Shown here: in pieces, positions 51,401 to 54,954 of the stretch
Layout of the letters: each line of letters opens with the position of its first letter
Numbering within the stretch: position 1 is the stretch's first letter
NCBI RefSeq assembly: GCF_963675165.1
Contig: NC_087380.1
Span: 3,897,803 to 3,961,802, forward strand
DNA: 64,000 nucleotides
Direction: 5' to 3'
DNA from: Halichondria panicea
Taxonomy: Eukaryota > Porifera > Demospongiae > Suberitida > Halichondriidae
The notes under the pieces: generated by a model
The model's database searches: none
Seen by the model: only the letters and a program-made list of their open reading frames with translations
Told to the model about the DNA's origin: nothing
Made by a program: the position numbers and the translations under genes

Positions 51401-54400
51401 GGTGTATGTAAAATGACTACTGACGTGAAATAGAGGCAGGATTAGTGGAATACTACAGTGCCAGAAACTAAGCGTAGAAGAGACCGGCAATCAATTAGTA
51501 CATGACAATTATATCGTGATACATAGAGTCACTGTTAAGGTATCTATATACCGTGTATGTTCTTTATCCGACAGCAAAAAATAATTATTTTGGAAATTGT
51601 TCGGGTATAATTGGAACAGATTTTATAGAGCATGCGAAGTGTCCGGAATAATTAAAACAAACAAGCAGGTGCATGCGAGCTAGCTAAGTTTAATAGAACA
51701 GTGTGCGACTGAATAGTTGCACTATAATTATAGCTATCTAAAATTAGCTACTCAAAGCTATCTAACTGCAGCACTCTAAGTCTTTCTTGCCGTCTATGAA
51801 TGTAACTCAACTTTTCAAGGTATTGTCTGGATATTTAGTAATATTAAAGCACTGAAGTGTCCGTTGTATTAGAACAACGAAAATTGCCCAAAAGAGTGTC
51901 TGGGGTAATTAGAAGTGTCCGATAAATTAGAAGATATACGGTACATGTCTCGAGGAACTTACAGAGCTACATACTCTAGGACATAGTTATGTTGAGCATA
52001 CATGTACATTACGGTGAGTGCAGCCTCACTTGTTTAGTTCCCAGTATCTTGCCGATGGTCCTGGCTAGTAGAGTCTTCCCGGAGCCTGGGGGGCCATACA
52101 ACAGAATACCCTGGGGTAATGAGACGATCGATACATATTAAATATTTACATGGTACACTCCTGGACAGAATTTGTGTTCACTCAATGAGCATGTTAGCAT
52201 GCTACAAGTAAAATGTCAGGGCTGCATTGAGGGGGGGCGAGGGGGGTAATTCGCCCCCCTTAAGATCTGGCACATTCATTTGTACTGCTATAATTCTGAT
52301 GACGTCGCCCCTCCTACATTTTAAAACTGCCCAATTCGCCCCCCCCTGATCCAAAATCCTGGATGCAGCCCTGAATGTACATACTATTTGCACGATACTA
52401 GCTCAGCATACAAATCAGTACGTGACTCACTTTGATGTGACCAATACCCAACTTGTCAAGCACATCAGGTGCAGTGCCTACACGAGAGAGAGAGAGAGAG
52501 AGAGAGAGAGAGAGAGAGAGAGAGAGAGAGAGAGAGAGAGAGAGAGAGAGAGAGAGAGAGAGAGAGAGAGAGAGAGAGAGGGAGGGAGGGAGGGAGGGAG
52601 GGAGGGAGGGAGGGAGAGGGGGGGAGGGAGAGGGAGAGGGAGGGAGAGGGAGAGAGGGAGGGAGGGAGGGAGGGAGAGAGGGGGGGGGGGGAGGGAGGCT
52701 GTAAATGCATGTTGGTATTTTTAAAGAACAAGTTTCTTGGGACAGAACAATAATTATATCAAACGTGCAAGTAGAGCATACAGTTCAGCTACAGCTCTGC
52801 CCTCGAAAACGGGAAAATTTCCTGTAGTTAGATCGCAGAGGGATAAATTTTTCTGCTCATTCACAAAGGTTTTTCATCCGCAAAATTAGTAATAGTATCA
52901 TTTGAGCCATTGCAAATTCCTTAGCATTGGTTAAGCCATTGAAACTTCCTTAGCTTGACTACAGAACACTGTGTTGCAATGTATACGTTCGTGCACATAA
53001 TTATGTGCATAACTTACTTCTTGAAGCAAATGCTCTCCTGTACAGCTCATCTATCTGCTTCTTTAGCCCTCCAACTCCAAGCTCGACAAACTTATCAAAC
53101 TTCTCCTTGAAGTTAATGGCCTCCTTGAATGACACAACACTCTCCAGTTCAGCAACAGTTTCTCGCGTACCGTTTGTGAAGACTCTAGTAATAGTCACAG
53201 GCAGGTTTTTACCGCCCACTTTCTCGATCGAGCAGTCCAGTCTATAAGGTGAGACTAGGGTGACAGCCAAGCACTTTACTGTTCCCACCATCATCACATG
53301 ATCACGTCTGAACGACATTGTACAGATGCCGGCATTGAATGGTGGGGGAGGGGTGTTAAGTTGATCTGGTGGAGTGCAAAACTGGTCAAAGTTCATTCCG
53401 TGTATCGATAACTGGACTCGTGCCATGTGATGGCATTCGGAGGTAGTTCTCAACGGAGTACTGTTCTCGCAGCCTGTTACTGCCCACAACTGAGGCGATG
53501 CTTGATCCCTAGTTAGCTCAGACGATAAGGTATCACTGTGTTCTTGTTTGGGCTGTACAGGGCATCCAAACTGACTCTGACTGAACTCAATGAAGTAATT
53601 GCAGACATCTTTCTTTTGTCCTTCGAAAGCTTTCGTTGGATTCATTTGCTCCGGTTTATACTGAACATTTGGATTGCATGGAAACTTGATGATTGTTCTT
53701 CTTGGTGTTTTAGTAACCTCACAAACTTCACCCTCATCATAAATAAGTTTGAATCCATATCCAGGGATGTTGGTCTCAATTTGCTCAACTCTAGAGAGTA
53801 TTCCAGCGATTGTGGGCTTGACTCCAGGCACTGAGATACAAGTGGGGGATTTCTGGTTGCTACACAACACCAAGGGGTTGGTTGTATCCTGGGGGCACAG
53901 CTGGAACACTAACACTGAGCCCTTGGGGTTGGGGAGATTGGATCGATACTGTCGAGTATTGAAGCTCTCCAGAGAGTATGTAACCCCCTCAGTGGATGTC
54001 CATGTGCAGGAATTCGGGGCGGCAGTAGGTGGAGTTTCAGAGCAGCCCTGTGTATATGTACGTGGTGGAGGTAGAATATAAACTCAGGTTCAACAGAGTA
54101 GTAGTAATTATGGGATTTAAATTGGGGTACTGCACACAATTACTGTTTATGACACACAGGTATGTTAGCATCTGTTGTGGGTTTTAGTGATGTCCTACAA
54201 CTTCATTCCACCAATTATCACTTCATAGCCATCTGAAAGTGTCGTGAATACAGTGGAGCCTTGATTATCCGGATACCTTGGTTCCAGAGGCAGGCCGGAT
54301 AACGGATAATCAAATAGATAAACCACGCCTTGATCCACCCACTTTAATAAATAGCAGTGCCACATGGTTGTCTGCGCAGAAGATAAGCAGGCCTGTCTCA

Positions 54401-54954
54401 ATAGTAATAAATGCGCATGCGCATTAATAAAATTGCTATAATGGAGGGCCGGATAATCGAGGTTCTACTGTACTATAATTATATATATACCCCCAACTTA
54501 ACTATAATCTGTTGATCACCATCCACCCCATTAATTTTGTACTTATAGTATTGGTATTAAAAGGTACATCTTAGCCTTGATATTAATTACATGTACCTGA
54601 CGATAATAATTATTTAAATCCTACGAAGAAGATACAGTACAATGTAGACGACTCATACTGTAAGTTGATCCTCCCCACGTACGTACATACCTCCAGATTG
54701 TCGGCAGGGCACTCTCCTTCATTGTCATCAGGTTGGCTACTCAACGGTGGGGTGGCAGGGGTCTCTGCAATGGGGGGAGGTGTGGGTGTCTGTGGGCCAG
54801 GAGTGGGGTGTATTGGGCTGGTAGGGGCCTCTACAGGCTGGTTGGATGGGGGGTCTCTGTCTCTAGGGCTAGGGGGTGGACTGCTATCCAGCTGAGCGGG
54901 CAGAGGCCGCATCAAAAAGAGTAGACACAGGCCTGTGAAGTAGTAAAGCTTCAT
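48466..54954 (-). CDS. MRH-domain / NSF-type AAA ATPase fusion protein
   Basis: Seven exons (54691-54954, 53018-54047, 52431-52477, 52030-52110, 50390-51321, 49730-50026 and 48466-48661) join to exactly 949 codons including stop. Residues 1-21 are a typical signal peptide ([20 protein letters not shown]) and 22-85 are Pro-rich. Residues 89-252 form a Cys-rich MRH domain, with [11 protein letters not shown] and an E...C-x-Y pattern before [11 protein letters not shown]. From about residue 296 the same exon continues into the NSF Nb subdomain, then [21 protein letters not shown]1 has GPPGSGKT (453-460), [10 protein letters not shown] and RPGR (580-583). D2 has GPRGSGKT (734-741) and [13 protein letters not shown] uses ATP to dismantle SNARE complexes in the cytosol; MRH domains bind mannose-type glycans in the secretory lumen. 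No membrane segment separates them. The NSF Na subdomain is absent, and the C-terminal 60 residues are diverged. All catalytic ATPase motifs remain. Confidence 0.85.
49139..49409. mobile_element. MITE in NSF-fusion intron 6
   Basis: The ends ccagtggtgtaggaagtggg and tcttcctacgccactg are inverted; subtermini are rich in gg(g)gcccc. An inner tagtctcgaattccagcct adds a MULE-like word. It is non-coding. Confidence 0.65.
50030..50193. repeat. Minisatellite beside the exon 6 acceptor of the NSF-fusion gene
   Basis: About five units of roughly 30 bp (gaggtgagtgagtgtgtggg followed by a g-rich run and gca) lie head to tail. On the sense strand they read as C/T/A-rich sequence and stop directly at the acceptor ctcactcacag of the exon that starts at 50026. 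Confidence 0.85.
51549..51942. mobile_element. TIR element, 'taccgtgtatgttc' family, in NSF-fusion intron 4
   Basis: The left end taccgtgtatgttctttatc and the right end attagaagatatacggta are inverted. The words gtccg(g/t)aataattaaaac and gtccgataaattagaag recur inside in symmetric places. It is non-coding and lies between exons 4 and 5. Confidence 0.55.
52217..52373. mobile_element. Short MITE with 'cagggctgcat' ends
   Basis: The ends cagggctgcattgagggggg and ctggatgcagccctg are inverted, and the subtermini pair as gtaattcgcccccct and caattcgcccccc. It is non-coding and lies between NSF-fusion exons 3 and 4. Confidence 0.75.
52483..52696. repeat. (GA)n / (GGGA)n microsatellite
   Basis: About 95 bases of pure (ga)n pass into (ggga)n and mixed purine repeats. 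On the coding (minus) strand this is a long (ct)n tract that ends 6 bases before the acceptor AG of exon 3 of the NSF-fusion gene. It would therefore serve as its polypyrimidine tract. Confidence 0.95.
54249..54472. mobile_element. Pogo/Tc1-like MITE in NSF-fusion intron 1
   Basis: The ends tacagtggagccttgattat and ataatcgaggttctactgta are inverted and flanked by TA, the target typical of Tc1/mariner and pogo elements. The interior shares ataaaccacgccttgatcca with the 35815 copy. No transposase is present. Confidence 0.75.

Follow-up and report, generated by a model that had tools for sequence, protein, structure and literature searches.

We analyzed a 64,000-nucleotide stretch of the genome of the sponge Halichondria panicea (positions 3,897,803-3,961,802 of one contig, NC_087380.1, in a genome of 131 Mb in 39 contigs), which we call the window and whose own numbering is used below. 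On its minus strand lies a seven-exon gene (54954-48466) whose 948-residue product carries, in order, a putative signal peptide, a Pro-rich linker, an MRH-like domain, an IPT/TIG-like domain, the two ATPase domains D1 and D2 of the vesicle-fusion ATPase NSF, and a Cys-containing tail. NSF is among the most conserved of cytosolic machines. Other sponges have proteins built in this order, as do two EukProt entries, and the genome encodes canonical NSF separately. Reading these features together, we consider it reasonably probable that the gene belongs to a conserved and apparently undescribed family of NSF paralogues sent into the secretory pathway, in which the MRH and IPT modules would choose substrates and D1 would serve as the motor.

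A conserved fusion within one exon

Exon 1 (54954-54691; all exons are on the minus strand) holds the start Met, the signal peptide (about residues 1-20) and the Pro-rich linker. It comprises 88 codons, has the donor GTATGT and joins exon 2 in phase 0, and an in-frame stop lies 12 codons 5' of the Met (the stop-to-stop frame runs from 54990). Exon 2 (54047-53018), flanked by the acceptor ACACAG and the donor GTAAGT, is open over its full length and encodes the MRH-like domain (54011-53541, about residues 101-257), the IPT/TIG-like domain (53495-53136, about residues 273-392; both sets of boundaries are approximate), a linker and the 20-residue start of NSF D1. The large subdomain of D1 begins in exon 3 (52477-52431), and its Walker A motif, GPPGSGKT, is in exon 4 (52110-52030). 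Exon 5 (51321-50390) supplies the D1 pore loop KYLGESE, Walker B IDEIDAI, sensor 1 TNR, RPGR and the D1 lid, as well as the D2 Walker A GPRGSGKT; exon 6 (50026-49730) contributes a Walker B-like ILDD to D2, and exon 7 (48661-48466) the Cys-containing C-terminus and the terminal stop. All six introns are GT-AG. An original prediction made from the letters of the window had placed MRH and the NSF run in one uninterrupted exon, a signal peptide and Pro-rich linker in an in-frame exon upstream, and seven exons in a single frame; the gene model agrees on each point, and there is no break at the junction. It had also run MRH directly into NSF, missing the IPT/TIG-like domain between them, which became visible on alignment to relatives that score as TIG.

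When residues 80-440, fusion point included, were used as a query, the search returned only P0001, a 904-residue protein from another organism with 48% identity over 97% of the query. An alignment of the window protein and P0001 then retrieved P0002 to P0006, and a seven-sequence profile added P0121, so that the domain order is shared with six proteins of full or nearly full length and with one partial protein. P0002 is from Amphimedon queenslandica (annotated "Vesicle-fusing ATPase") and P0003 from Dysidea avara ("uncharacterized"); P0005 and P0006 are EukProt proteins with labels in a style resembling that of choanoflagellate transcriptomes, and P0121, from Geodia barretti, is a 492-residue partial sequence spanning the end of MRH, IPT and D1. 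The original prediction had suggested looking for this architecture in other sponges, and three now provide it, Geodia in part. Both alignment searches scored about 8000 candidates, those with the most words in common with the query, and listed the best 120, so that absence from other taxa is not to be read from them; P0005 itself, found with the two-sequence alignment, was not among the best 120 of the seven-sequence profile, perhaps owing to the limit on candidates. Because residues 80-440 recur in P0001, and the same order in further proteins, a chance fusion is ruled out. That such a family exists is all but certain. Five further fragments (P0123, P0125, P0127, P0139 and P0147) consist of exon-5 frames that cover 28-31% of the query and match the window at 79-99% identity. 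They come from close relatives, P0123 perhaps from the same species, and were excluded from the tree and the counts.

Between the window protein and P0001, identity is 51% in MRH, 42% in IPT, 85% in the linker, 80% in D1, 58% in D2 and 59% in the C-terminus. Their cysteines correspond one to one: 15 in the N-terminal modules, two in D1/D2 and all four of the tail.

The MRH assignment is better founded on a family profile than on a single sequence. Taken singly, the sequence scored weakly (Pfam CIMR, E 0.02, under the cut-off), and a single-sequence search of the PDB returned no MRH chain among its matches. A profile of seven relatives gave five PDB matches up to E 10, four of them MRH proteins: ERLEC1 ranked first (whole-sequence E 4.4e-4; best single stretch 27 residues, 0.012), with OS-9 at 0.37 and 2.4 and CI-MPR at 0.92 over profile positions 18-131, and the fifth was a TLP-IPT chain at 0.036. 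The MRH matches mostly span about 30 residues, and hhalign to a stretch of CI-MPR domain 5 reached a probability of 32%, covering the G-x-x-C...R...C part alone. That pattern, together with E...C-x-Y, is shared with the MRH proteins ERLEC1/XTP3-B, OS-9 and the CI-MPR repeats, and nine Cys columns are invariant across MRH and IPT in the seven sequences; invariant Gly, Arg, Glu and Tyr columns further mark the MRH-like domain. For the second module, Pfam TIG exceeded its gathering score of 20.9 in P0003 (27.7 bits) and P0005 (30.1 bits), reached E≤1 in three of the seven members and gave nothing in P0121. The window protein has no Pfam TIG score, so its IPT/TIG call depends on alignment to these relatives. 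We know of no MRH protein fused to an ATPase, and the IPT/TIG proteins known to us belong to the receptors or the transcription factors and not to the AAA proteins.

Among solved structures, D1-D2 of the window protein was closest to NSF chains (411 bits, E 5.8e-122), followed by Sec18 (1e-117) and VCP-like proteins (4e-92). With NSF/Sec18 it shares the D1-D2 arrangement, a 13-residue junction, Walker A and B, the pore loop and RPGR. The D1 Walker A, Walker B (DEID or DEIE), sensor 1 TNR, RPGR and a Tyr/Phe pore loop are present in all eight members, from which ATPase activity is predicted.

A paralogue separate from canonical NSF

The family differs from NSF/Sec18 in its signal peptide, MRH-like and IPT-like domains and Cys-containing C-terminus, and in that no NSF N-domain was found. 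Human NSF residues 1-205 had no match in the window (tblastn best E 6.9), and MRH-like/IPT-like sequence occupies the place before D1 in the window protein and its relatives, the Geodia partial included. The original prediction had described only the Na subdomain as missing; the part that binds alpha-SNAP is indeed gone, and no other piece of the N-domain was found in the 64 kb either.

It had further proposed a search for a separate canonical NSF, and the genome holds two copies on another contig (C6), L025 and L026, at about 3.096 and 3.192 Mb and roughly 96 kb apart. Ahead of D1, L025 has recognizable pieces of the N-domain (best E 7.8e-4), and L026 gives fainter matches to it (0.10). The aligned blocks of the two copies are 90-97% identical, as in a segmental duplication or unresolved haplotypes. 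A genome-wide search with the MRH/IPT part gave no second match up to E 10.

The window D1 is 53% identical to human NSF and likewise to the NSF of its own genome; against human, plant, algal and Naegleria NSF together it lies at 51-56%, about equidistant. The canonical NSF of the same genome is 76% identical to the human protein and 64-70% to the plant, algal and Naegleria proteins. With an ordinary NSF present in the same genome, the NSF-like gene is a separate paralogue, and these distances mark it as probably old, or as one that evolved fast early on. In an unrooted tree of 19 rows, a branch with 100/100 support separated the eight family members from 11 canonical NSFs. A recent sponge duplication of NSF was considered and found no support, as human NSF and the canonical NSF of this genome are joined at 100/100 and the introns differ, the window gene having one after RRAFASR and one before GILLYG where the L025 match runs unbroken from RRAFASR to GILLFGPP.

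Placement, mechanism and alternatives

For comparison of the N-termini and cores we used NSF controls drawn from search hits that start with M and carry G[IV]GG[LM], of 680-800 residues (n = 140) or 700-780 residues (n = 134). A hydrophobic N-terminal segment was present in all seven full or near-full members by hydropathy (the partial P0121 was left out of the N-terminal and whole-core Cys counts). In six of the seven it lies within the first 25 residues (1.95-3.03, the window protein's best 12-mer being 1.95), a range in which none of the 134 controls reached 1.9. The segment of P0006, at residue 34, scored 3.27, against a maximum of 2.61 over the first 60 residues of 140 controls. Past the signal segment the best 19-mer was 1.42 in the window protein and 1.45 in P0001, and later 15-mers were at most 1.67 in P0001 to P0006; hydropathy thus gives no clear membrane segment after the N-terminal one, in line with the original prediction that none lies between MRH and NSF. 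The AAA core of 440 residues contains one to three Cys in all seven members, compared with three to eight (mean 5.65) in the 140 controls, which are mostly plant sequences and not independent, and six in human NSF. Hydropathy, the invariant MRH/IPT cysteines and the Cys-poor AAA core together favor an oxidizing compartment for the whole chain, and a lumenal or secreted placement appears quite likely on these features. Of the three readings offered originally, that of a lumenal NSF-like AAA ATPase is the one they favor. Loss of the N-ethylmaleimide-sensitive Walker A Cys was also tried as a mark of the lumen and dropped, as the genome's canonical NSF lacks that Cys too (GTGKT).

In NSF, D1 is the motor and D2 holds the ring together. 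By analogy, D1 of the window protein may be the motor and D2 the ring-holder, with the N-terminal modules selecting substrates. The signal peptide would direct the entire chain into the endoplasmic reticulum (ER), where the Cys-rich MRH and IPT domains would fold. Displayed six-fold on the D1/D2 double ring, these modules would take over substrate recruitment from the N-domain with which NSF binds alpha-SNAP. D1 would hydrolyze lumenal ATP while its aromatic pore loop pulled on the substrate, and D2 would mainly keep the hexamer together. The targets would be glycoproteins or their complexes, disassembled or unfolded either within the lumen of the ER/Golgi or extracellularly; lumenal glycoproteins or complexes seem the most likely substrates because the SNAP-binding N-domain is gone and SNAREs face the cytosol. 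Such a disassembly mechanism is plausible, and dependence on glycans is its least certain step.

Several observations weigh against this interpretation. Localization is deduced from sequence features. When the first 60 residues are considered, 46 of the 140 controls attain 2.0, so hydrophobicity discriminates only near the N-terminus. One later 15-mer of the window protein, inside the IPT-like domain, scores 2.07, and no KDEL-like tail ends the window protein, P0001, P0004 or P0005. The window protein has N-glycosylation sequons at N283, N380 and N627, the last of them in the AAA core. The controls, as noted, are mostly plant sequences and not independent. The D1 motifs that the original prediction described as kept are intact, and those of D2 are degraded in three of seven members (LDN in P0004, LDG in P0005, GKM in P0006). 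With a CDC48-like outgroup (P0122, used solely for this purpose, on a very long branch of 8.1), P0005 and P0006 group with the canonical NSFs at 94/93, and a rooted clade of the family is thus not shown; the sponge members remain outside the canonical NSFs in that tree, and P0004 to P0006 are flagged as long branches. In D1, P0005 shares only 57% and P0006 only 56% identity with the window, hardly above canonical NSFs. The MRH sugar site consists of Gln, Arg, Glu and Tyr. In the register given by the Cys alignment, Arg, Glu and Tyr seem kept in all seven sequences, and the Gln position is Ile or Leu in all seven, a difference from the MRH proteins. A passage of one paper names four essential MRH residues and, for domain 9, prints "Gln, Arg, Glu, and Arg" (PMC7481795). 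Of the MRH lectin originally proposed, the profile similarity to MRH stands, and sugar binding by the MRH-like domain is conjectural.

The hexamer could instead be secreted rather than resident in the ER or Golgi, working extracellularly (on matrix or mucus, or facing microbes) with extracellular ATP. The export-type N-terminus, the lack of a visible retention tail and of a clear membrane anchor and the established role of IPT as an ectodomain module of receptors are compatible with this, but extracellular ATP is low, AAA unfoldases require sustained ATP and the conserved D1 speaks for a working ATPase; we give secretion a modest minority chance. It is also conceivable, though unlikely, that D1 and D2 form a nucleotide-held ring that displays six MRH/IPT modules for multivalent binding and does little pulling. 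The degraded D2 motifs would suit such a scaffold, as would the inability of purified torsins, themselves lumenal AAA+ proteins, to hydrolyze ATP alone, according to a passage of PMC7140721. The intact D1 Walker B, sensor 1, RPGR and pore loop of all eight members, and the 80% identity of D1 between the window protein and P0001, argue the other way.

That a cytosolic NSF-like product is the main form, by dual topology or an alternative start, with the export signal confined to a minor one, strikes us as improbable. NSF's known work is cytosolic and localization here is deduced from sequence, which leaves room for the idea; however, Met 223, 296, 306, 332, 340 and 341 of the window protein are not Met in P0001, its closest full relative and the only one compared in this respect, the 15 MRH/IPT cysteines align one to one between the two, and the AAA core is Cys-poor. 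An internal start as the source of the main product was rejected for the first of these reasons, and the original suggestion of two products from alternative starts is disfavored with it. An artefact in which two adjacent genes are read as one is scarcely credible. Spacing is compact, and the frame of the upstream gene stops 143 bases ahead of the start, but the fusion point lies within one exon, the same fusion occurs in seven other proteins, and P0001 and P0004 are probably spliced transcripts, because their contigs, at 3352 and 2757 nt, are hardly longer than the coding sequence and could scarcely hold introns. We therefore rejected the artefact and retain a family of NSF paralogues sent into the secretory pathway as the preferred interpretation.

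Neighboring features, torsins and significance

The upstream neighbor on the same strand is RIMC1 (RAB7A-interacting MON1-CCZ1 subunit; 55101-56895, minus strand, two exons matched); it is the frame of its nearer exon that stops ahead of the NSF-like gene. A long (GA)n/(GGGA)n repeat at 52486-52700 adjoins the acceptor of exon 3, where it forms a pyrimidine tract on the coding strand. On the plus strand, an exon at 47174-47620 encodes the C-terminal half of a GTPase of the Ras family (Pfam Ras, E 2.6e-13) and ends in a hydrophobic tail of 24 residues, as if from a tail-anchored Rab-like GTPase, and a 373-codon open frame at 4239-5357 contains a metallo-beta-lactamase-fold domain (E 2.4e-8).

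Torsins (TOR1A and others), signal-peptide AAA+ proteins of the ER lumen, are a known likeness if the lumenal placement of the NSF-like family is right. According to a 2020 paper, no other AAA+ proteins are known from the ER lumen and perinuclear space, and torsins have a non-canonical Walker A, no Arg finger and a requirement for LAP1/LULL1 (PMC7140721). The NSF-like family has two NSF-type AAA domains rather than the single domain of the torsin type; its D1 Walker A is canonical, and it brings an RPGR of its own. No torsin was found in the genome with Pfam or a human TOR1A query, exon by exon and without a suitable control. An MRH- or IPT-bearing NSF was not described in the titles and abstracts searched or in passages of PMC7385117, a search that did not cover subscription journals or preprints. 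As far as that search reaches, the architecture is new for an NSF-type AAA+ protein, and the compartment is probably new as well.

We think it slightly better than an even chance that sponges and some other eukaryotes possess a second, NSF-derived and hitherto unnoticed class of AAA+ protein in the lumen of the secretory pathway. It would be a double-ring machine that needs no partner, unfolding or disassembling the proteins or glycoproteins to which its MRH and IPT modules bring it. Because an export signal and two modules of extracellular type stand where NSF has its N-terminus, in a layout that recurs in sponges, this NSF-type machine probably works inside the secretory pathway and not in the cytosol. 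If so, a conserved paralogue of NSF, equipped with an export signal and with ectodomain modules, would have carried an NSF-type motor across a membrane. The family would then offer a testable case of ATP-driven remodeling inside the secretory pathway, with an enzyme that differs from torsins in having its own arginine finger.

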